Virus record (IMG/VR): IMGVR_UViG_3300032245_000750
Coordinates: 1 to 36,542 of that record
Source: a virus
Reading direction: 5' to 3' (one strand)
Length of the DNA stretch: 36,542 bases
Position 1 is the first letter of the stretch, and the number at the start of each line of letters is the position of its first letter. Of this stretch, positions 3,792-27,106 are shown one piece after another. A program made the position numbers and the translations under genes. The notes under the pieces were generated by a model, which had not been told where the DNA came from, did not search any database, and saw nothing but the letters and a program-made list of their open reading frames with translations.

Positions 3792-6700
3792 ATGGCAGAT
3801 TTATATATCAACCCACAAGGTCAGTTAATTAATAATGATTCTCAATCTATTACTGGAAATGAAAAGATAGATAAATATCTTAACACATTACCAGCAGAGC
3901 AAAGAGAAGGTGCGTTAAAAAAAATTACCGCTCCATTAAACGGAGAAGAGATTGCTAAAAAATTAAAAGAAGATATTAATTGGATTCCAAACAAACAAGA
4001 GTTTGATTTATTTAATAAATATCAGTCGCAAAAAGAAACTGATATTGTAGATGGTTTATCTTTATTTACTGATGCTGCTAGTGCTATGTATGATATAGCA
4101 GGAAATGTAATTTCTTCTACATACGACCATCCGCTAGAAAATGCTCTTAAAATTGCTCCTAGTATATTAGAAGGTGGAGTTCAAAACATTCGTAATTGGT
4201 ATGGTATGCTTGCTCAAAGCCAAGACCCTAGTAGTGTTTTGTTTAAATGGAAAAATGTATTATTAAGAGATGGAAGTGATGATGCTTATAAGCAATTTTT
4301 AGAAGCACGAGATTTTGCAAGAGAATCTGTTGGTTATGAAACTGGTGAAAAAACAATGCTTGTTAATAAAGACTATATTGACCCAGCATTAACACAAGCG
4401 GCTGCTATTATAGTTGACCCTATGTTTTATGGTAGTTTTTTAGTTGGCGGTGGAGGTGCTGGTGTTACTCAAAAAGTAGCACAAATTTTAGGAATGTCTG
4501 AGCGTTTGGCTAAGGCTAGTGCTTTTGCTGAAAAGATGAAAGGTGCTGTATATGGAGGTGCTCTTAAATATGGCGTAGGAGTTCCTTTAGAGTTCATTGG
4601 TGACATCACTAGGGGCACTATTGATAAAGCCGTAGAAGGCGGTTCTAAGGTGCTAGAAGGGGCTACTGGAGTATCAGCACAAGACATTAAAACTGCTACT
4701 AAAGTTGGAGGATTTGGAAGTATTGCTACAGGTGTTCCATATTTATCTCCTACTTCTAAAGTTTATTTAGGTGCTGGATTTTCATCTGGATTAGGTGAGG
4801 CTCTTAGTGCTACTGGTGAGCAAATAATGAAAAACGGAGGAAAGCGTGGTTTGCTGTCATTTGCTGAACAGGCTATTGCTGAATCTGACGCTATGCTTGC
4901 TAAAGGTGGTTCTGGGTTAACTCCACAGGCTCGTAAATTGCTTAATGTAATTAATAAAGCAGACCCTATGTTTTCTTATGCTGGTTCTTTTCTTGAAGGT
5001 GGAGCACACGGAGCGGTTGTTGGTGGTGCATTAGGATACCTTGGTGGTGGTGAAGAAGGTGCTTGGGGTGGGGCGGGTGCTGGATTTGGCATTGGTTCGT
5101 TGGGTGGAGTTGCTGGTAGAGCAATGAGCAATATTGGAGGTGGATTAGAAAAACAGCGTTTAGCAGTCCAAATGGATATGCTTATGCCTATGCTCAAAGA
5201 TACTGACCCAAATAAATATAGTGCTATTGAATTGCTTAGAAAGGCTAGTCGTGAGGCTGGCAATCCAGATTGGGTAGTTGATAGATACGCTGTTGCACTT
5301 GATAAAATTGCACCAGCATCCAGAATGAAGGTAGGTGGAAAAGTTGCTCACGAGGCTGAACTTCGTGCAAAAGGACAAGACCCAAAGATTTACGATGGAT
5401 ACGAGCGTGACGCAAATGGTGAATATAAATTAGATAAAGATGGTAACAAAATTCGCTTAAGAGATGCTGAAGGATTTACTATTCCAACTGTTGATGAGTA
5501 TAATCGTGCTGCTGGATTTACTATTCAAAGCGATATAAACAACAATATCAAAATACACATCAATACAGACAAAATTGGTGAAATTAAAAACACACTTCCA
5601 CACGAATTATTCCACGCAGTATTTCGTGAATTAGGAATGAAAAATGAATTTAAAGATAGAATTGCTGAACATATTTTAGGAACATTTGATGAAAAAGGTA
5701 ATCAAATTAAGCCTCCAAGTATTAGCAAATTTGAGGCTGAAAGTTTCTTCACTAAATACATAAATAGTGCTTATGCTGGTACTGACAAGCAAGAGCGTTT
5801 AGCAAAACTTAAACAAGCGTTAGACGAATATTATAGCACAGGAAAGATGACTGTTATGGAGTCAGATGGAGTAACTCCTGTTCTTCATCATTTAAATGAA
5901 GAATTTGGTGCTTATTATTGGACTCATTTTTTAAACGATAAACCTGTAGATTATTTATTCCGTGGTGGGGAATTAGAAGGAATTCGTGGTGTTCTTGATT
6001 CTATTAAAAACAGATGGCAAGATTATATGGAACGCAAAGTTGGTGGTGTAAATGGTGGATTTGATTTTGCTCGTGATAAATATATTAACCCTTCCTTTAA
6101 AGATAAAGACGGAAAGCGTATTCGTGTAAGTGCATTAGATTATATGATGCAGGATTTAATTAGAACTAAATCTGCTGCTTCTAGAGGTCAAGCATTTGAT
6201 TTTAATAAACTTAGTCCAGAAGGACAGGAAGCATATGTTAATGCATCTGGTAATAGTATAGCATTTGAACCACCAAAAGTTAAAGGTGGTAAATACAAAG
6301 TTAGAACTGCAGAACAACAAAAAAAGATTCGTGTTAAACGAGCAGATGCTATGCACAAAGGTCTTGAGGCATTTAGAACTTCAAATCCAGAAATGCTTCG
6401 TGTTAGAGATGCTAACGGAAATGACATAGGAGGGCTTTCACCAGATGCTGATGGAAACTATACTGGATTAATTCCAGATGCTATTCTTGATTATTTTGTT
6501 AAATCTGGTCATATTGATAAAGTAGAAGCAGAGCGTATTAAATTGCTTCAAAAAGCGGCTAGAGGAGAAACTTCTAGTAATGTATTTGAATTCATAGAAT
6601 ATACTGGTGAAACAATGCACACAGGCATTGATTCTAATGTTCGTGCTAAATCGCCATATGTTCCCACTAAAAACAGAGTTGTAATTTTAACTAATTTTGA

Positions 6701-9700
6701 AACTAAAATTACTCCTAATGATTATGGATTTTACGCTCATACATTAGATTACAGACACTTACAATTTAGACAAGATAATTTATGGAAAGACCCTAAGGTT
6801 CGTGCGGCTTGGGGTGATGATAAAGATGCTTTTACTGCTGACTTATTTAGATATTTTAAGAACGCTAGTCAGCCAGATGGAGTTAGATTACCATCTGCTC
6901 AGTTATGGTCTGAAAATGGTGAATACAAACGAAATGTTTTGCATCAAGTAGCAGGACTAGAAACACCTGCATCTGGAACTTTAAATCCATCTTTAGGTGA
7001 TATTAAAGGTGATATGTTCAGCACTTATCGTCAATTCAGAACAGACAGAATGAGCCAAGAGCGTATGGGTAGTGAGAAAATTCACCTACAAGGTAAAGAT
7101 GCTATTGATTACATTCGTCATAATATGATGCCTTCAGAGATGTCTAATGAGCCTACTCCAAATGGTCATATCTATACTCATCCTAATGGATATAAATTCT
7201 TTAAGACTGAAAATGGAATTAAGGCTGTAAAGCCAGATGGTTCAGTTGTTGGTATTTATAAAACAATGGAAGAGGCTGTAAAGAAATCTGATATTATTTA
7301 TCAGAAAGAGAACCCCAATGGTAAGCCTATTCCTAGCGTAGATAATATCAGACAAGAGCCTTTTGACCCTCCAGAGACTCTAAAGCAATATATTGAAAGA
7401 AAGTTAAATAATTTATTTACTACTAGTGAAGAAAATATTTCATCTATTTTAAATTGGAAACCAAATAATGAATTAACAAATTTAATTGAAAGCAAAGATT
7501 TTCAAAATTTTTTAAACAATCACGATGCTAGTTTAGATATAGTTAGATATAATCATATTATTGATAAACAACAAACAACAAAAAATACTGTATCTAAATA
7601 TTTAGAAGTACAATATAATAAAGAACAACAGGCAGTTAATCCTACATTTGTATCTGGTCTTAGCGTAGCACTTGATAAAATACTTTCTGCTAATGTTAAT
7701 AAAGAAGGAACTATTCAAGCCAGTCGTTTGCTTAATTTAATGGATAGAGCATCTGGTGGAGACATAGGAAAAATACTCACAGAATCTAATGCTATTGGAT
7801 TTACAGATTGGTTAAAATCTAAAAAAGACTCTCGTGTATCTGAGGCTGAAATTCGTCAATACATTAAAGACAATGGTATCAAAGTAAGTTTAGACCCAAG
7901 AACTGATATTCGTGGCAATGAATGGTATGGTGGTGGTTTTGATACATCTAGATATACAGCAGAAGGTAAAAGAGATGGATACTATACTTTTGTAGCAAGA
8001 ATTAATCCAGAACACGCTCACGGAGTAGAAGGACATTTTGGAGGAGATAGTATTGTTCATATTCGAGCAACTACTCGTACTGACGCACAAGGTCGTAAAG
8101 TGCTGTTTGTTGAGGAGATTCAATCTATCAATACTGCCCGTGAAGAACTTTCTCCATCTCAGCGTTCTGTAGTTCAATCTGAAATTAAATCTTTAAAAGA
8201 ACTTAAAAACATTGCAAGTGAATTTAATAAAGTAAGTAAATTGCATTATGAGTCAAAGGGTACTATGCTTAAACGAGCATTAGATATTGCTAGAAAAGAA
8301 GGAATTGAAGTTTTAAAAGAATATGAAATGAAAGGAGAAGTAACAAATGATTTTAGAAAATTAGTAGATATTATTGCTTCTTCAGATATTCTAAAATTAG
8401 AAAAAATACCTAAATTAAGTAATAACAGTTCAATAGAAATAATGCGTGATGGTAAGTATGAAATTAAGCGTCTTGTTTCTGAGCGTGAGTCTCAACTTGC
8501 TAAAGTTAAAAGCAACAAGCCACTTCAAGATTTCAACGAAACAGTTAAAATAGCAAGCAGGACTATTATGCGTAAGGCTGTTGAACTCGGTGCTGACAGG
8601 GTTGTTTTAGTTAGACCAGAGGATATGCACCCAGATGTCTCTACTAATGCTGAAGGTGAGCGTTTTGTGGACACGCTTTATGGCAGAGATATACCTGCAA
8701 TGATGAACGCTGAGTTAAAGAAGTATGGCAAAAAGTTAGCACCTGCTAGAAACTATGGAAATCAAGACCCTAATGCTCCTATAAAATTATCTGGAAGAAT
8801 GGTAGGTAGTTCTGATAAATTATACAGCAAAGAAGCACAAACTAAACAAATACTTTCAGAGTCACTAGGTTACGACATCACCCAAGAGATGAAGCAGAAG
8901 GCTGGCAGAAGTCAGACTTTTATGATGCCATCTGAAAATAGTGATATTATTTATACTGGGAGAAGATTTGTTGGACAAGTAAAAGGAGGAATGTGGGCTA
9001 CTAGAGATTTTAAAAGATTAGAAAATGCTGGTGGAATAAAAGCATATAGAATAAGTCCAGATGCTCGTGTTTTAGTTCTTCATAAAACAAAATTTGATAA
9101 GAATGGAAACTATCTTTATTCTGATGTTAATAAATCTGGCTTTAATGAATTAAGAAAAATTGCTTTAGAGTCTAATCAAGATTTAGATTTTTGGGATAAT
9201 AAAGAACAATTATTTAGTAATCCAGAGTTGTTAGATGGAGACAGTTTATTTCCATCTTTAGATACAGATGAAACTATGCGTATGTCTGATAATGAAATCG
9301 AAGATAAAAACGCAGAGTTTCCAGAACAACAAACAAGAAATTCTATAAATAAACGAGATTTATTACAAGCAGTTAAAGATGCTGGTTATGACATAATTAA
9401 GACTACAAATATTGAAGGTGAAGCAACATTAGTTTTAAATAAAAATGCTGTAACTCCATTAACTGTTGATGATAAATTACCAACTCATTATATGCCCTCT
9501 GAAGGCGAGTACAGAAGTGGCGATAATTACTGGAAGGCTAAAGAGAATAAATTTGAAGGTGTAGATGAAAATGGTCAAACATATAGACTAGCATCTGCAA
9601 TTATTAATGGTAAAGTAGAATTTAATCCAGACCCAGACAATGTTTCTTGGATGGATATTGGGCATAGTAATATGCGTATGCCTAATCAAAAGGTATATGA

Positions 9701-11696
9701 GGCGGGCAATTTAAGAAATAAACCTGTAACATCACCAGATGATTATATGGCTAAAATGCGTGATGGTTTGTGGGCTATTGCATCAAATAAACCTAATGAT
9801 GTAATGATGTATAAACCACCCGCAAATGCACGACCAAGACTAGAAGCAATTACACACGATGAATGGTTGAGAGGTTTTAGGGAAGGTGGTCACGGACGCT
9901 ATATATATGATATTACAACTGGACGATACGAAAAACCTATTTACAAAGATGGTAAATTAATTGAAAGGGGCAGGTTGTCTATGCAAGCCTATGGTGAAAT
10001 TACTTCTTTAGAACAGGCTAAAAAAATTAAAGAACAAGTTGCTAAAAAACTAGGTTTTAAGTCTGAAGATTTTGATGCTTATGTTTTTGATAGTGGAGTA
10101 AAAGAAAAATTAGGCATAAGTCGTAAAGACCAACTGCCTATTAAGTTTATGCCAGCAGAAAGTTCTGAACCTATTCCATTTAAAGACTTTATTGCCAAAA
10201 CAGAGCAAGAAGTAGGTGCGGCTTGGTCATTACCTTTCTATAAAAAATTAGAAGGTTCAGTTATTTCTGGGGCTGATATTGGAAATTTGCGTATTCTTAA
10301 AGTAACAGAAGATAAAAATAAACAACCTAAATTAACTGTAATTAATGAAGAAAAATATCAAAAGATTCTTAAAAATTACCCAGAAGGAAAACCAAGAGAT
10401 AATGAAATTCGTCAAAGTGCTGAAGAATATAAAGCGTGGGAATTTCGTAAAGGAGAATTTAGGCATCCATTATTTACATTACAAAACAATATAGAAAATA
10501 TTAAGTTCGATGCTTCATCTGCAAAGCCAGTTAAGCAAGTTACATTTAATGCACAGGCTATCAGTTCTGCTGTCAGTTCTATTGCTGATGATTTAATAGG
10601 AATGGAGTTTGATAAGACTTCTACTACTACTTTATTTGGAAGAAAATCTAAGACTGGAGAAGTCAAAGGAATTATTCAGAACTTACAAGATGCAGTACAG
10701 GAATTAAACAAGGCAAGAACGCCAGAAGAAAAGTCTAGTGCTGTAGATAAAGTTAATTCTTATGTTGAAGAACTTAGGTCATTAAAAGATGAACTACAAG
10801 ATAAGCACGATAATACTCCAGAATCATTTCAAGAAACTGATACTTACACTAATCGAGAAGAAGCAATAGATGCACTTGATAATGCTATTACTGATTTAGA
10901 AAATAGTGCTGAAGATACAAGTGGTGGCTCTACTGGAATTAAAAATATGATGCCAGCCGAAGGCGAGCAGGGTGGACGAACTTATACAAATACAGAATTT
11001 AATTCTTTATTTATTGGAAGATATGCACAACAAAATAAAGACTTGCTTAAAAATCTTACAATTAAAGTAACTGAAAAGAGTGATGGATTTGAAGTAAGAC
11101 TATATGACCAAAAATCTAAAACACCAAGTTTGCATATTGGAAGTTTAAAAATTGATAGAGCAAATGATTCTAGTTCTGCAAGTATTGAAAATGCTGACAT
11201 AAATGGTTCTTACAGAAATAAAGGAATTGGTAAACTTTTATATAGTGAAGCAGTTGAAAGATTAAGAAGTTTAGGTGTTACTGATGTTGATGGTATGATT
11301 GTTGATGAATTTAATAGACCTGTAAAAATTCGTAAAAAAATTATTGATGAAGAAAATAATCGTATTGAAAATAAAACAAGAATAAATACTAATGGAAGAA
11401 CTTATACATCTGCTGTAAGAACTGATGATTATGGAAATCAACAAAAAGATGTATCTTCTACATTAAGACAAGATGCTTATTATATGCCATCAGAGCAAGC
11501 ACAGGCTTGGCGTGACTTCAAAGCAGAGCCTACTACCGAAGGAAACAGCATCTTTAAGAACGCTATGAACTTTGTGATTATCCAAGCGAACAAAAAATAC
11601 AAGGTGTATAATCCACAGAAAGCATTGTTAGGTATTTACACAGATTTAGACCAAGCAAAACGGAGAGTTCAACGAGAAGAACCTAAACAACGATGA
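3792..11696 (+). CDS. Giant multidomain virion protein (large polyvalent protein) with zincin motif, LPD-like, GNAT and repeated MPxE junctions
   Basis: The product has 2634 residues and lies where T7 has gp16. Residues 190-460 hold several Gly/Ala-rich hydrophobic stretches that could cross membranes. HELFH at 604-608, with a glutamate-rich EEFGAYYW about 100 residues later, is a zinc metallopeptidase signature. VEEIQS near 1440-1445, followed by a helix and ELGADRVVLVRPEDM, is the pattern of a domain found in large polyvalent phage proteins. Residues about 1715-1900 look like a compact alpha/beta domain ending in AGYDIIK. Residues about 2390-2540 carry a GNAT acetyltransferase core with RNKGIGKLL. 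Six motifs M-P-(S/A)-E stand at 1113, 1712, 1901, 2120, 2387 and 2565, between modules. Segments 1133-1168 and 2600-2630 are related to each other. The protein is probably packaged and ejected into the host; which domains act there is unknown. Confidence 0.75.
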   Translation: MADLYINPQGQLINNDSQSITGNEKIDKYLNTLPAEQREGALKKITAPLNGEEIAKKLKEDINWIPNKQEFDLFNKYQSQKETDIVDGLSLFTDAASAMYDIAGNVISSTYDHPLENALKIAPSILEGGVQNIRNWYGMLAQSQDPSSVLFKWKNVLLRDGSDDAYKQFLEARDFARESVGYETGEKTMLVNKDYIDPALTQAAAIIVDPMFYGSFLVGGGGAGVTQKVAQILGMSERLAKASAFAEKMKGAVYGGALKYGVGVPLEFIGDITRGTIDKAVEGGSKVLEGATGVSAQDIKTATKVGGFGSIATGVPYLSPTSKVYLGAGFSSGLGEALSATGEQIMKNGGKRGLLSFAEQAIAESDAMLAKGGSGLTPQARKLLNVINKADPMFSYAGSFLEGGAHGAVVGGALGYLGGGEEGAWGGAGAGFGIGSLGGVAGRAMSNIGGGLEKQRLAVQMDMLMPMLKDTDPNKYSAIELLRKASREAGNPDWVVDRYAVALDKIAPASRMKVGGKVAHEAELRAKGQDPKIYDGYERDANGEYKLDKDGNKIRLRDAEGFTIPTVDEYNRAAGFTIQSDINNNIKIHINTDKIGEIKNTLPHELFHAVFRELGMKNEFKDRIAEHILGTFDEKGNQIKPPSISKFEAESFFTKYINSAYAGTDKQERLAKLKQALDEYYSTGKMTVMESDGVTPVLHHLNEEFGAYYWTHFLNDKPVDYLFRGGELEGIRGVLDSIKNRWQDYMERKVGGVNGGFDFARDKYINPSFKDKDGKRIRVSALDYMMQDLIRTKSAASRGQAFDFNKLSPEGQEAYVNASGNSIAFEPPKVKGGKYKVRTAEQQKKIRVKRADAMHKGLEAFRTSNPEMLRVRDANGNDIGGLSPDADGNYTGLIPDAILDYFVKSGHIDKVEAERIKLLQKAARGETSSNVFEFIEYTGETMHTGIDSNVRAKSPYVPTKNRVVILTNFETKITPNDYGFYAHTLDYRHLQFRQDNLWKDPKVRAAWGDDKDAFTADLFRYFKNASQPDGVRLPSAQLWSENGEYKRNVLHQVAGLETPASGTLNPSLGDIKGDMFSTYRQFRTDRMSQERMGSEKIHLQGKDAIDYIRHNMMPSEMSNEPTPNGHIYTHPNGYKFFKTENGIKAVKPDGSVVGIYKTMEEAVKKSDIIYQKENPNGKPIPSVDNIRQEPFDPPETLKQYIERKLNNLFTTSEENISSILNWKPNNELTNLIESKDFQNFLNNHDASLDIVRYNHIIDKQQTTKNTVSKYLEVQYNKEQQAVNPTFVSGLSVALDKILSANVNKEGTIQASRLLNLMDRASGGDIGKILTESNAIGFTDWLKSKKDSRVSEAEIRQYIKDNGIKVSLDPRTDIRGNEWYGGGFDTSRYTAEGKRDGYYTFVARINPEHAHGVEGHFGGDSIVHIRATTRTDAQGRKVLFVEEIQSINTAREELSPSQRSVVQSEIKSLKELKNIASEFNKVSKLHYESKGTMLKRALDIARKEGIEVLKEYEMKGEVTNDFRKLVDIIASSDILKLEKIPKLSNNSSIEIMRDGKYEIKRLVSERESQLAKVKSNKPLQDFNETVKIASRTIMRKAVELGADRVVLVRPEDMHPDVSTNAEGERFVDTLYGRDIPAMMNAELKKYGKKLAPARNYGNQDPNAPIKLSGRMVGSSDKLYSKEAQTKQILSESLGYDITQEMKQKAGRSQTFMMPSENSDIIYTGRRFVGQVKGGMWATRDFKRLENAGGIKAYRISPDARVLVLHKTKFDKNGNYLYSDVNKSGFNELRKIALESNQDLDFWDNKEQLFSNPELLDGDSLFPSLDTDETMRMSDNEIEDKNAEFPEQQTRNSINKRDLLQAVKDAGYDIIKTTNIEGEATLVLNKNAVTPLTVDDKLPTHYMPSEGEYRSGDNYWKAKENKFEGVDENGQTYRLASAIINGKVEFNPDPDNVSWMDIGHSNMRMPNQKVYEAGNLRNKPVTSPDDYMAKMRDGLWAIASNKPNDVMMYKPPANARPRLEAITHDEWLRGFREGGHGRYIYDITTGRYEKPIYKDGKLIERGRLSMQAYGEITSLEQAKKIKEQVAKKLGFKSEDFDAYVFDSGVKEKLGISRKDQLPIKFMPAESSEPIPFKDFIAKTEQEVGAAWSLPFYKKLEGSVISGADIGNLRILKVTEDKNKQPKLTVINEEKYQKILKNYPEGKPRDNEIRQSAEEYKAWEFRKGEFRHPLFTLQNNIENIKFDASSAKPVKQVTFNAQAISSAVSSIADDLIGMEFDKTSTTTLFGRKSKTGEVKGIIQNLQDAVQELNKARTPEEKSSAVDKVNSYVEELRSLKDELQDKHDNTPESFQETDTYTNREEAIDALDNAITDLENSAEDTSGGSTGIKNMMPAEGEQGGRTYTNTEFNSLFIGRYAQQNKDLLKNLTIKVTEKSDGFEVRLYDQKSKTPSLHIGSLKIDRANDSSSASIENADINGSYRNKGIGKLLYSEAVERLRSLGVTDVDGMIVDEFNRPVKIRKKIIDEENNRIENKTRINTNGRTYTSAVRTDDYGNQQKDVSSTLRQDAYYMPSEQAQAWRDFKAEPTTEGNSIFKNAMNFVIIQANKKYKVYNPQKALLGIYTDLDQAKRRVQREEPKQR

Positions 11697-17201: not shown

Positions 17202-17231
17202 AATATAAACTTTGTTTAACTTGCTTGTCAA
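17202..17231 (-). promoter_or_regulatory. Sigma70-like promoter for the RHH-ERF unit
   Basis: On the minus strand TTGACA (17231-17226) and TATATT (17207-17202) are separated by 18 bases. This is the best sigma70-type promoter in the early region. It overlaps the end of the helicase loader gene and points to the RHH and ERF genes, which begin about 125 bases downstream after a leader containing a hairpin and element B. Confidence 0.6.
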
Positions 17232-17899
17232 GTGCTAATACCAACAATGTTAAAATAATCTTTGAAGCGTCTAATTAGGGCTACACCTGTTTCCTTGTCC
17301 CGATTTTCAAATCGCTCAAGGAGAGCAGTTCCGTTAAAGTTAGTTGAGATAATTGTAGCCCTGCGAGCGGTTGTTCTCTCGTCTATAACACTAAACAGGT
17401 CAGAAGCCATACGAGATGTAAGACGCTCTTTTCCAAAGTCATCAAGGATAAGAAGTTTGCACTCGATTAGGTTGTCTATGGTCTTTGCGTGACAGCGTTT
17501 GTCAAAAGACTCCTCAATCATTCCCTCGAGTTTACGCATTGTAAGGAACTGAAAGTCAAGTTGTCTGTCATTCTTTGCTTCCTCTTCCCAGAGCCGTCTA
17601 ACGACCTCCCAAACTCCACGAGTCTTTCCTACACCAGTCTGTCCGTGGAACAACAGTCCACACTTGTCCCCATCTGGCTTCCAGTCCAAAGCGTCTTGGA
17701 CTCTAGAATGTAGTCTTGTCTTATCTGTATCCCTAAAAACAAGTGGCATCGAAGGAGGAAAAAAACTATCTGTATATCCATTAGACCCAATACGCTCCCT
17801 GTCCATATGCTCTCTACAATGATGCCAGCGAACAAGAGAACCATCTTGTCTGGCTAGTAAAGCCCCCCGCTTTCCACAATGGCAAGCAATGTCACTCAT
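17228..17899 (-). CDS. DnaC/IstB-like helicase loader ATPase with zinc-finger-like N-terminus
   Basis: With the ATG at 17899, which overlaps the upstream stop as ATGA, the product has 223 residues. CHCGKRG near the N-terminus with HHCREH about 20 residues later offers a zinc-binding set. GQTGVGKT (about 86-93) is the Walker A motif, LLILDDFGKE the Walker B, and STNFN the sensor 1 of the DnaC/IstB branch of AAA+ proteins; the arginine-containing ALIRRFKD follows. Such proteins load the replicative helicase at an origin. The initiator-like gene at 19269-19949 carries iterons, so the pair resembles lambda O and P in logic. No phage helicase is visible, so a host DnaB would be the partner. Confidence 0.85.
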   Translation of the reverse strand: MSDIACHCGKRGALLARQDGSLVRWHHCREHMDRERIGSNGYTDSFFPPSMPLVFRDTDKTRLHSRVQDALDWKPDGDKCGLLFHGQTGVGKTRGVWEVVRRLWEEEAKNDRQLDFQFLTMRKLEGMIEESFDKRCHAKTIDNLIECKLLILDDFGKERLTSRMASDLFSVIDERTTARRATIISTNFNGTALLERFENRDKETGVALIRRFKDYFNIVGIST

Positions 17900-18774
17900 A
17901 GTCCGCACATACCCTCGCACTCTGAAGTGAAGTCCCATTCCTGTTGTCCTTTGTCTGTATCTGAATCAAAATCTATTTCTGATATAGGACGGCAAGATGA
18001 ATGAAGATATACCTCCATTTTCATATCTGTCTGCTCTGTCTTATACATTTGACGAATAGTTTTATCAAACTCAATTGCTTTCTTAAAATGCTCTGGGTCG
18101 TCATTTCGTAAGCGTCTCCACTCATCGTCAGAGTGAAATGGACAATAATAACAAGCAGAGCGAGGAGGTTCTGGATAGTTATTTCTTTTCATCCATTCCT
18201 TGCAATGAGCACGAGTCATCTTTTTTTCTACTAATACCCATCTATGTTGAGTCCATTTGTTACTAGGCAACTTCATTCGTTGCATCTCATCGTATGAGAT
18301 TCCAATCCATTGTGTAACAGTTACTTCTTTCTGTGCGTGAGTTATCCCGCAACGCTTTTTTATTTCTTTGAGAATAGGTGCTACTTTATAATCAGCAGTA
18401 CAAGTTCTTCCAATAGCCGCAGTTACTTCCCCGCTTGGTTTAATACCAAACAAAGGAATTAAACGCCTCATAGATTTAAGCCCTGTCTTTTTTCGGTAAA
18501 CTATTTTAAGACTATCTTCTGTTAAGTTTCCTTTTGTGACCCGATAAATAGGAAATGGATACGGGCATTTGTTAATCTCTTGCTCTAAATAGTCTAACCA
18601 AGTATAAACACTAGTAGGTTCTGCTTGTGTATCTGCAAATACAGCAAAATCAACACGAGGAGTTATTTCACCTTTAGCCGCCATAAGAGCCATTGTTGAA
18701 GATTGAACCCCTGCACCTAAATTAAGCACATTCCATTTTGTGTGCGGTGGTGGGTCAAAAAATGAATTGCTCAT
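17896..18774 (-). CDS. PP-loop / PAPS-reductase-like protein
   Basis: The product has 292 residues. LNLGAGVQSSTMALMAA near residue 16 is the pyrophosphate-binding loop of the adenine-nucleotide alpha-hydrolase family in the form common in phages (LGAGVQS). VFADTQAEPTSVYTWLDYLE follows, then a cysteine-bearing GRTCTADYKVAPI and CYYCPFHSDDEWRRL. The family includes sulfate-assimilation PAPS reductases and DndC of DNA phosphorothioation; phage members have no settled function. The cysteines could hold a metal or iron-sulfur centre. It sits between a small unknown gene and the helicase loader, overlapping both, so it belongs to the DNA-metabolism operon and a role in DNA or RNA modification is a reasonable guess. 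Confidence 0.8.
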   Translation of the reverse strand: MSNSFFDPPPHTKWNVLNLGAGVQSSTMALMAAKGEITPRVDFAVFADTQAEPTSVYTWLDYLEQEINKCPYPFPIYRVTKGNLTEDSLKIVYRKKTGLKSMRRLIPLFGIKPSGEVTAAIGRTCTADYKVAPILKEIKKRCGITHAQKEVTVTQWIGISYDEMQRMKLPSNKWTQHRWVLVEKKMTRAHCKEWMKRNNYPEPPRSACYYCPFHSDDEWRRLRNDDPEHFKKAIEFDKTIRQMYKTEQTDMKMEVYLHSSCRPISEIDFDSDTDKGQQEWDFTSECEGMCGL

Positions 18775-19279: not shown

Positions 19280-19949
19280 TGTGGTCTTGTGCTGATAATG
19301 GTTGTTTTTGGTTTTGGTTGGAAAAATTTCTTGGCTCGAATAGTCCTGTCCACCCGTTTGTAATACTATGGTTGATGCTGTCAATAGATTTCTTTTCTCC
19401 CCATAAAATAAATTGCTTCCATTGAAGTTTAATAGAAGTTGGCTTAAGTTGCTTCTTAATCTCCTTACGATACTCAATCCATTTAAACCAAGCGTCTTCA
19501 AATGACTTTGATGAAAATGGTAAAGAACCTACGATTGGAGCAGAGTTCCTTGTATCTTTATCTTCTTTATTATCTTCTTTATTATATGTAGGCAATTTTT
19601 TGCCACCCCCCGTGGCAATTTTTTGCCTAGGGGTAGGCAATTTTTTGCCACCCCCCTGCACGACTAAAGCGTCCAGAAGGGCTACCTTTTCGACAGTTCT
19701 GATAATTCGTCTTCCGTCCTGCTCTAAACGAACTATCAGTTTATGGTCGTCTAACTCCTTCAAAAGATTGCGTATTTGACGCTCTGCTAGCCCCAAGGAG
19801 CGAGCCAAGTAGCCGTTTGAGGCATAACATCCGTCCTCATTATCAAGTGAGTCTATAATGCCATACACGAACTTGGCGGTAGGAGAAAGCGTTTCGATTT
19901 GGAAAACCTCTTTAGGTATCCATACGCCTGTAAAATTAGGATTGTTCAT
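19269..19949 (-). CDS. Replication initiator-like winged-helix protein
   Basis: The product has 226 residues. Residues about 20-75 form a winged helix: LSPTAKFVYGIIDSL, YASNGYLARSLGLAERQIRNLLKEL described by its ends, then the wing LIVRLEQDGRRIIRTV. This is the N-terminal domain pattern of phage replisome organisers. A middle linker contains GGGKKLPT twice, encoded by an iteron array. The C-terminal part has AWFKWIEYRKEIKKQ and LQWKQFILWG, resembling DnaA/DnaD-like helical tails. The DnaC-like loader lies downstream in the same operon. The stop overlaps the next start and the start overlaps the exonuclease stop by four bases. I infer that it binds the iterons inside its own gene, as lambda O does. 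Confidence 0.7.
   Translation of the reverse strand: MNNPNFTGVWIPKEVFQIETLSPTAKFVYGIIDSLDNEDGCYASNGYLARSLGLAERQIRNLLKELDDHKLIVRLEQDGRRIIRTVEKVALLDALVVQGGGKKLPTPRQKIATGGGKKLPTYNKEDNKEDKDTRNSAPIVGSLPFSSKSFEDAWFKWIEYRKEIKKQLKPTSIKLQWKQFILWGEKKSIDSINHSITNGWTGLFEPRNFSNQNQKQPLSAQDHNEF
19551..19590. promoter_or_regulatory. AT-rich segment beside the iterons, possible DNA-unwinding element
   Basis: About 40 bases made almost entirely of A and T, with three TTATCTT/TTCTTTATTA-type pyrimidine runs on the plus strand, lie directly beside the iteron cluster. In iteron origins the melted region is a similar AT-rich stretch next to the binding sites. The purpose is inferred; the segment is also coding for NKEDNKED in the initiator-like protein. 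Confidence 0.5.
19591..19649. repeat. Three iterons GGCAATTTTTTGCC, putative replication origin
   Basis: The 14-base unit GGCAATTTTTTGCC occurs at 19591-19604, 19614-19627 and 19636-19649, all in the same orientation and exact, with start-to-start spacing of 23 and 22 bases, close to two helical turns. The first and third copies share a longer 24-base identity including a following run of C. Each unit is nearly palindromic (GGCAA/TTGCC). They lie inside the replication initiator-like gene, beside an AT-rich segment, as lambda iterons lie inside gene O. Confidence 0.75.
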
Positions 19950-20737
19950 AAAGTGATTTCAACAGGATTTTCGGAATAGGCAGGATAAACTCCTGTCGCT
20001 TGGCAAACCCAAAAACTATCAAGTGCATTATCCCACACCTTAAACGCATTTGCTAAACTATCCTTGTTGATAGTGTAAATCCCAACAGCAAATGGTGGTT
20101 CTTTTTCAATAGCAATGAAGTAAAAAGCATTAACAGGTTTTCCAGCATTTTTTAATAACCAAGAATAATGAACTTGTTGCAGGGCATATCCCCTGTCCCA
20201 GATTGCTTTGCGAAAACCTGCAGGAGATGCGTCCTCTGCTGTTTTTAAATCTATCACAATACCATCTTTCTCATTGTAGCCGTCTATTAGTCCTTTCAAT
20301 CTAATGCCGTGATTTGTTCCAAAAACTGCAAACTCTTTATTGGTCAAAGACTGAATAAGACTACCAGCAAATCCATTTGACATAACAGAGTCAGTCATAC
20401 TGATAATTTTGCTATGTTCTTCGCTGTCCAAAATAATTTTGCCAGCGTTTGCTAAAGCAAACTCTTCATTGTAGGCACGACCCTCTTTAGACCTGCCGTC
20501 CACTTTTTGTTTGACGGCGTAATGTTCTTCTGGGTTGTCCTGTAAAACTTTAGCGTGAAATGCAGTTCCAAATTGCATCGCCCTGCTTGGCTCTCTTGTG
20601 CTTTCGGTTGATGCAAGGTAGTGTGCTGGTGAAATTAAAAACTCCTTAAGAGACGATTGAGAAAGACCTGTTGCCTTTCGGTATTCAGTTTCAGTAATGT
20701 TTGTGATAACAGCAGGGTCTGTGTTCATAGGGTTCAT
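19946..20737 (-). CDS. RecE-like PD-(D/E)XK exonuclease
   Basis: The product has 263 residues. LSQSSLKEFLISPAHYLA near residue 24 and MQFGTAFHAKVLQ near 54 are the N-terminal helices and the GTAxH motif of the RecE/exonuclease VIII group; RLKGLIDGYNEKDGIVIDLKTAEDASP, given by its ends, supplies the D and D-x-K catalytic core; QQVHYSWLL is the following Q-x-x-x-Y motif. Such enzymes degrade one strand from double-stranded ends to give a 3-prime tail for annealing. Together with ERF it forms a recombination pair like RecE/RecT. Start at 20737; ATG codon 4 is an alternative. It overlaps the initiator gene by four bases. Confidence 0.85.
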   Translation of the reverse strand: MNPMNTDPAVITNITETEYRKATGLSQSSLKEFLISPAHYLASTESTREPSRAMQFGTAFHAKVLQDNPEEHYAVKQKVDGRSKEGRAYNEEFALANAGKIILDSEEHSKIISMTDSVMSNGFAGSLIQSLTNKEFAVFGTNHGIRLKGLIDGYNEKDGIVIDLKTAEDASPAGFRKAIWDRGYALQQVHYSWLLKNAGKPVNAFYFIAIEKEPPFAVGIYTINKDSLANAFKVWDNALDSFWVCQATGVYPAYSENPVEITL

Positions 20738-26421: not shown

Positions 26422-26478
26422 GAACAATCGTTCACTACTGAACACCTGTTCACTTACTGAACTTTAGTTCACCTGAAC
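26422..26478. repeat. Alternating inverted half-site array GAAC/GTTCA/TGAAC
   Basis: Half-sites alternate in direction: GAAC 26422, GTTCA 26430, TGAAC 26439, GTTCA 26448, TGAAC 26458, GTTCA 26467, TGAAC 26474. Spacers are four, four, four, five, four and two bases. Three palindromes GTTCA-n-TGAAC result. The first two half-sites also spell GAAC-AATC-GTTC, which resembles the LexA box of Gram-positive bacteria. It is probably a multi-site operator. Confidence 0.65.
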
Positions 26479-27034: not shown

Positions 27035-27106
27035 CGGTCTGTAGTTCAACGGATAGAACATTCGCCTTCTAAGCGAATAATCTTGGTTCGATTCCAAGCA
27101 GACCGA
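27035..27106 (+). tRNA. tRNA-Arg (anticodon UCU)
   Basis: All arms form: acceptor CGGTCTG/CAGACCG (7 pairs), D arm GTTC/GAAC with loop AACGGATA, anticodon arm TTCGC/GCGAA with loop CTTCTAA giving anticodon TCT, four-base variable region, and T arm CTTGG/CCAAG with loop TTCGATT. It reads AGA, a codon used often in these phage genes. The discriminator is A and no CCA is encoded, so CCA must be added by the host. It is followed 63 bases later by the first late gene. Confidence 0.9.

Follow-up and report, generated by a model that had tools for sequence, protein, structure and literature searches.

The stretch of DNA analysed here (the window throughout) is an IMG/VR virus record of 36,542 bp, in which a minus-strand gene for a predicted replication initiator is set among genes for DNA transactions (Table 1). 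In addition to the nuclease and helicase loader listed there, the minus-strand block around the initiator encodes an Erf-like annealing protein and endonuclease VII, and a loader gene lies downstream of the iterons described below in 15 of the 17 loci that were searched for it. Between the initiator and loader genes of the window is a phosphoadenosine phosphosulfate reductase-like gene (17896-18774). At some distance from this block, positions 3792-11696 encode a protein of 2634 aa, whose one match is a weak one to a PHROG family of unknown function, with no Pfam match at an E-value of 0.01.

Table 1. Coordinates of the initiator gene, its internal DNA elements and its neighbours in the window
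Feature	Positions	Strand	Remarks
Replication initiator, 226 aa	19269..19949	-	Pfam HTH_36; PHROG 678 'replication initiation O-like'
Predicted recognition helix, residues 56-68	19746..19784	-	Residue 60 (Arg, codon 19770-19772) co-varies with half-site base 1
Iteron 1 in gene order	19636..19649	.	GGCAATTTTTTGCC
Iteron 2 in gene order	19614..19627	.	GGCAATTTTTTGCC, other reading frame (RQKIA)
Iteron 3 in gene order, nearest the AT-rich block	19591..19604	.	GGCAATTTTTTGCC, hyphenated dyad
AT-rich putative unwinding element	19553..19588	-	Coding strand CATATAATAAAGAAGATAATAAAGAAGATAAAGATA; two exact 12-mers (19558-19581); encodes YNKEDNKEDKD
Predicted helical C-terminal domain, residues 148-198	19356..19508	-	Conserved GWxGLF motif; putative partner-binding region
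DnaC-like AAA+ helicase loader	17228..17938	-	Downstream of the initiator, co-directional; present in L001-L015
RecE/exonuclease VIII-like nuclease (DUF3799)	19946..20737	-	Stop overlaps the initiator start; shared operon direction

The initiator matches HTH_36 at 41.4 bits (cut-off 25) and phrog_678 with an E-value of 2.4e-20; in a Pfam scan of the protein at E-values up to 0.1, HTH_36 was recovered, and neither a phage-O family nor RepA_N was among the matches. Its predicted model (mean pLDDT 72) comprises a winged helix and a helical C-terminal domain, separated by a disordered linker (residues 98-138). The best Foldseek-derived fold matches are 4pql_A (Z 9.4; 87 residues, rmsd 2.3), 4pt7 (Z 8.8), 4pta (Z 8.6) and 5kbj (Z 8.6), all of them DNA-binding domains of RepA-type plasmid initiators; we take the first three to be staphylococcal RepA (the structure listing gives initiator or DNA-binding protein). 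The Foldseek E-value of the RepA resemblance is only 0.01, and since other winged helices reach Z-scores of 8 to 9 against the same model, the fold alone proves little. A profile built from 39 related sequences found nothing below an E-value of 0.09 among the sequences of solved structures. The first-pass annotation had described a winged-helix protein acting by the logic of lambda O; the winged helix is supported, and the affinities of the protein are to HTH_36 and a RepA-like fold rather than demonstrably to lambda O.

About 300 bp inside this gene, in the part that codes for the linker, are three exact copies of the 14-bp unit GGCAATTTTTTGCC (19591-19649), with start-to-start distances of 23 and 22. 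Each is a hyphenated palindrome of the form GGCAA-N4-TTGCC, with 5-bp arms and a 4-bp middle, and all five arm pairs match in each of the three. When up to three mismatches are allowed, the unit has 13 matches in the window against 7.5 expected in shuffled sequence, and it is thus only the exact cluster that is remarkable. Directly adjoining the iterons on the 3′ side of the gene is a block (19551-19590) with 82.5% A+T, a composition equalled by about 1.9% of the 40-mers of the window; its notable feature is an exact 12-bp direct repeat, TTATCTTCTTTA. The three exact iterons proposed in the first-pass annotation, and the AT-rich stretch next to them, are hence borne out, with certain corrections: the stretch is not the pure run of about 40 A/T bases that had been described; the single orientation of the copies means little, each unit being a hyphenated palindrome within a minus-strand gene; and the peptide GGGKKLPT, which had been read as the coding echo of the repeats, is encoded on the coding strand by units 1 and 3, while unit 2, lying in a different frame, encodes RQKIA.

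Relatives of the initiator were collected by protein and DNA scans that returned 17, 7, 15 and 60 loci, with overlap. The resulting 65 proteins (54 distinct) include a core of 39 that are at least 40% identical to the initiator of the window and longer than 200 aa, a core from which L024, L089, L086 (frame broken) and L087 (cut) are excluded. Core genes share a plan of dyad, about 8-9 bases, dyad, 9 bases, dyad, 4 bases and then the TATA of the AT block, and the dyads are spaced 22+23 in 17 genes and 23+23 in the other 22, which places the units in two or three frames; in L021, three identical units occupy three reading frames. Of 78 spacers between dyads, 63 carry a run of G on the coding strand and 15 a run of C, the runs being 3 to 9 bases long. 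Unit sequences differ across the core (GGCAA..TTGCC, GGAAG..CTTCC, TGCAA..TTGCA, TGCGG..CCGCA and TGTAA..CTACA), and more distant initiators use others, L017 for instance having ACCAAC-N4-GTTGGT units beside the same AT block. A detector requiring three mutually alike 14-mers, 22-24 apart and each at least partly palindromic, was positive in 34 of the 39 core genes and in none of 424 control ORFs that were drawn from the same loci and are free of overlap with an initiator. Before every ORF overlapping an initiator had been taken out, the control set gave 8 positives among 451, the recognisable ones being initiators of isolate phages and ORFs antisense to initiators. The five core genes that escape the detector (L066 and L074-L077) have diverged or mixed units. 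In L086, a single dyad is left and the downstream frame is broken, as if two 23-bp units had been lost, though a repeat collapse in assembly is possible.

These data bear on whether selection acts on the repeats at the protein level, with the repetition in the DNA simply following from a repeated Gly/Lys/Pro linker peptide. The identical peptide from units 1 and 3 would fit such an account, as would the 370 positives that the detector returned among 3900 synonymous-codon shuffles of the core genes, although this null is a severe one because the shuffles retain the peptide. Nevertheless, identical units lie in two or three frames and thereby encode different peptides, and their base changes follow residue 60 of the protein, which is outside the linker (see below). 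Moreover, the divergent initiator L024, located solely through its iteron DNA, combines R60-N61 with the same GGCAA unit, and has both its units and its AT block in yet another frame. We accordingly regard selection on the peptide alone as highly improbable. L024 further shows identical GGCAAAAAATTGCC units and an AT block with two 12-mers 14 apart, both elements being in frames other than those of the window.

Codon usage in the AT block points in the same direction. In 20 genes, the block uses AAA for Lys in 40 of 40 cases (177 of 415 elsewhere in the same genes), GAT for Asp in 37 of 37 (97 of 214 elsewhere) and TAT for Tyr in 23 of 23 (44 of 94 elsewhere). Nine distant relatives show a weaker contrast, with AAA for Lys in 18 of 18 against 149 of 242 and GAT for Asp in 6 of 6 against 93 of 121. 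Several distant relatives, including those nine, were retrieved by the peptide YNKEDNKE or a relaxed form of it, and the conservation of that peptide is therefore partly an effect of ascertainment; the test on the 20 genes is unaffected, since back-translation is degenerate. Taken with the occurrence of the same unit in two or three frames, the exclusive use of AT-rich codons in the block indicates that the DNA itself is selected, besides the peptide. The AT element TATAAYAAAGAAGATAAYAAAGA hardly varies where the iterons do, and in distant initiators it is again present next to iterons that are unrelated. Hence, beyond its melting, it may be read as a sequence by a conserved partner, potentially the loader, host DnaA or the other face of the initiator. 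All 15 stretches of the AT block in viral_contigs fall in initiator genes (L020 being the record of L007). We rejected the block as a stand-alone marker of origins, as its three exact matches in genome_contigs are all outside initiators, and dropped a DnaA-trio-like reading of it, as the triplet polarity of DnaA-trios does not fit.

The sequence of the units is linked to that of the predicted recognition helix. In an alignment of 18 sequences, where this was first noticed, residue 60 is Arg or Lys with units that start with GG and Gln with those that start with TG; among 21 added sequences, all 18 with Arg or Gln obey the pattern and the other three have Lys. Over the 39 distinct initiators, with three units and both arms counted, the half-site starts with GG in 108 of 108 cases with R60, whereas with Q60 it starts with TG in 90, CG in 10 and GG in 2 of 102 (non-GG in 100 of 102), and with K60 it is mixed (GG in 14 and TG in 10 of 24). 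The mixture of GG and TG half-sites in the Lys60 genes L075, L076 and L077 appears as if specificity were relaxed, or between the two states. When the 152 alignment columns that lie outside the linker are ranked by mutual information with unit class, two mixed-unit genes being excluded, column 60 comes first (1.00 bit; normalised 0.80), and the second, column 56 (normalised 0.30), belongs to the same helix. Base 4 of the half-site is G in four genes, all with Thr or Ala at residue 61, these being of one helix type and hence representing few independent events. We do not claim a general rule for residue 60 outside the family; of the four distant sequences scored, L024, L028 and L100 (R60, GG units) fit it and L099, with Q60 by alignment and CCAAC units, is a misfit.

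We asked how often the two traits changed on a tree of the protein from which the helix and linker had been removed. Q60 and the TG class each change nine times, and at unit 3 the residue and the TG class agree in 39 of 39 genes (two mixed K60 genes being scored as not TG). Independent traits simulated on the tree agree at best in 33 of 39 and, in 20,000 runs for each of four rates, never reach 37 of 39. Trees of the N-terminal or C-terminal part alone give 5 and 10 changes, respectively, with both traits equal each time. Node support in the combined tree is modest (median 0.94; 0.9 or more at 22 of 36 nodes), and nine switches is therefore an estimate. Closely related pairs of opposite class are found in L058/L068 and L049/L064, which are 91% and 88% identical, respectively, outside the helix and linker. 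The switches would appear more numerous than they are if recombination had moved helix and iterons jointly, though such a route, which is possible, leaves intact the requirement that helix and iterons match. A role of the dyads as RNA or single-strand hairpins (attenuator, primer or assembly-initiation sites) is exceedingly improbable in this light: each unit, and neighbouring pairs of arms, could fold, but the arms are only 5 bp long and their changes follow a DNA-contacting helix residue in all 39 genes at unit 3, for which a hairpin role gives no reason.

Taking together the anatomy of the iterons, the conservation at the DNA level and the residue-base co-variation, we infer that 19551-19649 is very probably a phage replication origin, which is embedded in the linker-coding part of the initiator gene and bound by the product of that gene. 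Dimers of the initiator would bind the three palindromic iterons via the N-terminal winged helix, with Arg60 and Asn61 of the recognition helix as the predicted readers of the outer half-site bases. Spaced by about two helical turns, the three complexes could form an O-some-like assembly, upon which the adjoining AT-rich block with its two 12-mers would melt, and the C-terminal domain would likely recruit the phage DnaC-like loader, which in turn would load the DnaB helicase of the host onto the opened strand, so that replication would start at this site. An alternative with which palindromic sites bound by a winged-helix protein are also compatible is that the iterons are operators for autorepression of the initiator, with replication starting elsewhere, and the co-variation as such points to binding rather than to replication. 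However, the sites are some 300 bp inside the gene, adjoin a conserved and codon-restricted AT block and are upstream of the loader in those 15 of 17 loci, on account of which we consider operators without an origin quite improbable; autorepression could coexist with origin function.

Another contender for the main origin is a non-coding cluster of dyads near 26.4 kb, with the site at 19.6 kb being secondary or the two being incompatible. This intergenic region (26430-26478) has three dyads, GTTCA-N4-TGAAC, GTTCA-N5-TGAAC and GTTCA-N2-TGAAC, arranged in overlapping style and followed by a run of G, which might represent operators, a second origin or a packaging site. Two similar GTTCA dyads lie near each other in the L002 record, and phage SPP1 has, according to the portion of its description available to us, two origins about 13 kb apart (PMC6316719). 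Cumulative GC skew, which the first-pass annotation had put forward as a check, was computed over the window: it peaks near 13 kb and is lowest near 27 kb, close to this cluster, with no minimum at 19.6 kb. Both extremes coincide with changes of gene direction, and since the skew follows gene direction, it does not locate the origin. Further, the GTTCA half-site is unlike GGCAA, making binding by the same initiator unlikely, and the exact pattern is present in the records of 4 of 15 relatives and clustered in only one. A main origin at 26.4 kb is thus, in our assessment, very improbable, and we retain the site within the initiator gene. Just past the non-coding dyads is a tRNA-Arg (TCT) gene (27035-27106).

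Origins of this kind are already known from lambda, SPP1 and pSK41. Lambdoid O proteins have long been known to be type-specific for their own origins, and work under such titles is cited among the references of PMC6022878. The lambda-O logic put forward in the first-pass annotation is supported as far as sequence can show (linker-coded iterons, hyphenated dyads, an AT-rich block on the 3′ side and a downstream, co-directional loader), and the relatives keep this layout as the unit sequence changes with the recognition helix. As in lambda, the origin is inside the initiator gene with an AT-rich element adjoining it, the iterons here being placed between the DNA-binding and C-terminal parts. 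In the lambda record, the iteron starts are 20, 24 and 23 apart, in mid-gene and in several frames, and the 45 bases past iteron 4 have 75.6% A+T. Each lambda iteron is described, in the accessible passages of two papers, as an inverted repeat with hyphenated symmetry that takes two O proteins, with a 39-bp AT-rich region adjoining (PMC6022878, PMC7466680). In contrast to the four 18-19 bp iterons of lambda, the window has three 14-bp units; its loader is a DnaC-like AAA+ protein rather than P and its initiator matches HTH_36. Given the three 14-bp units, we see the site as one that probably works like the lambda origin but is not to be filed as one.

The plasmid pSK41 has, by the part of the published account available, four Rep boxes in the centre of rep, which are bound by the N-terminal winged helix and whose encoded peptide is dispensable (PMC5703833). 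Its RepA is thus comparable to the initiator of the window in having a central origin and an N-terminal winged helix; unlike the RepA_N plasmid initiators, the latter lacks a Pfam RepA_N match, and whereas the C-terminal domain of pSK41 RepA contacts primase, the window encodes a separate loader. The chimeric Rep of plasmid pPR9, in which, per the same partial account, a block of pfam13730 HTH and origin replaces the RepA_N block and replicates (PMC5703833), is by its description a published precedent for HTH_36 and origin as one functional unit, albeit in a plasmid. For SPP1, the sections at hand place oriL in gene 38, with direct repeats and an AT-rich element bound by gp38 and a separate loader, gp39 (PMC6316719); by this description it resembles the window but differs in possessing an additional origin, oriR, and a DnaB-type helicase of its own. 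Titles and abstract openings in the open-access literature do not describe a residue-to-iteron rule in phage HTH_36 initiators, which is weak evidence of absence. As far as we have seen, the new elements are the residue-base rule, the repeated switches of specificity, this family of initiators, the palindromic three-unit form and the nearly fixed AT element.

We lean, by a narrow measure, towards a model in which the initiator and its internal origin constitute a self-contained specificity cassette that has been switched repeatedly, about nine times, between R60/GG and Q60/TG. It would possess a readable code, with residue 60 setting base 1 and residue 61 possibly setting base 4 (Asn with A; Thr or Ala with G), while the AT element TATAAYAAAGAAGATAAYAAAGA is perhaps read by a partner. 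Replication interference between relatives that infect the same cell could have driven the switching, as could parasites copying the origin. The locus presents a strong case, from sequence alone, for reading the origin and initiator of an uncultured phage from a metagenome contig. It also belongs to a set of naturally occurring initiator-origin pairs that differ in specificity by one or two residues of the protein and one or two bases of the site, through which origin recognition, replication incompatibility of related phages and the evolution of origin specificity become testable with short synthetic DNAs and small proteins.

Isolate phages yielded 26 records with a match, six of which were examined. 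The distant HTH_36 relative Orf5 of the Leptospira phage LE1, whose origin has been cloned into a shuttle vector according to the parts of two reports available (PMC6078989, PMC2229662), has no such repeats in or just after its gene, and the HTH_36 family thus does not always carry an internal origin. In the other five (Cruim01, GJ44, PC22, Cormatin and KO-TP1), the initiator gene contains 3 or 4 repeats at intervals of 19-24, and three of these phages are positive by the strict triple-dyad detector. The same AT block as in the window is seen only in GJ44 among the six: this Oceanospirillum phage (vB_OliS_GJ44; L103), a practical laboratory stand-in, has the AT element TATAACAAAGAAGATAACAAAGA beside three different 23-bp repeats.
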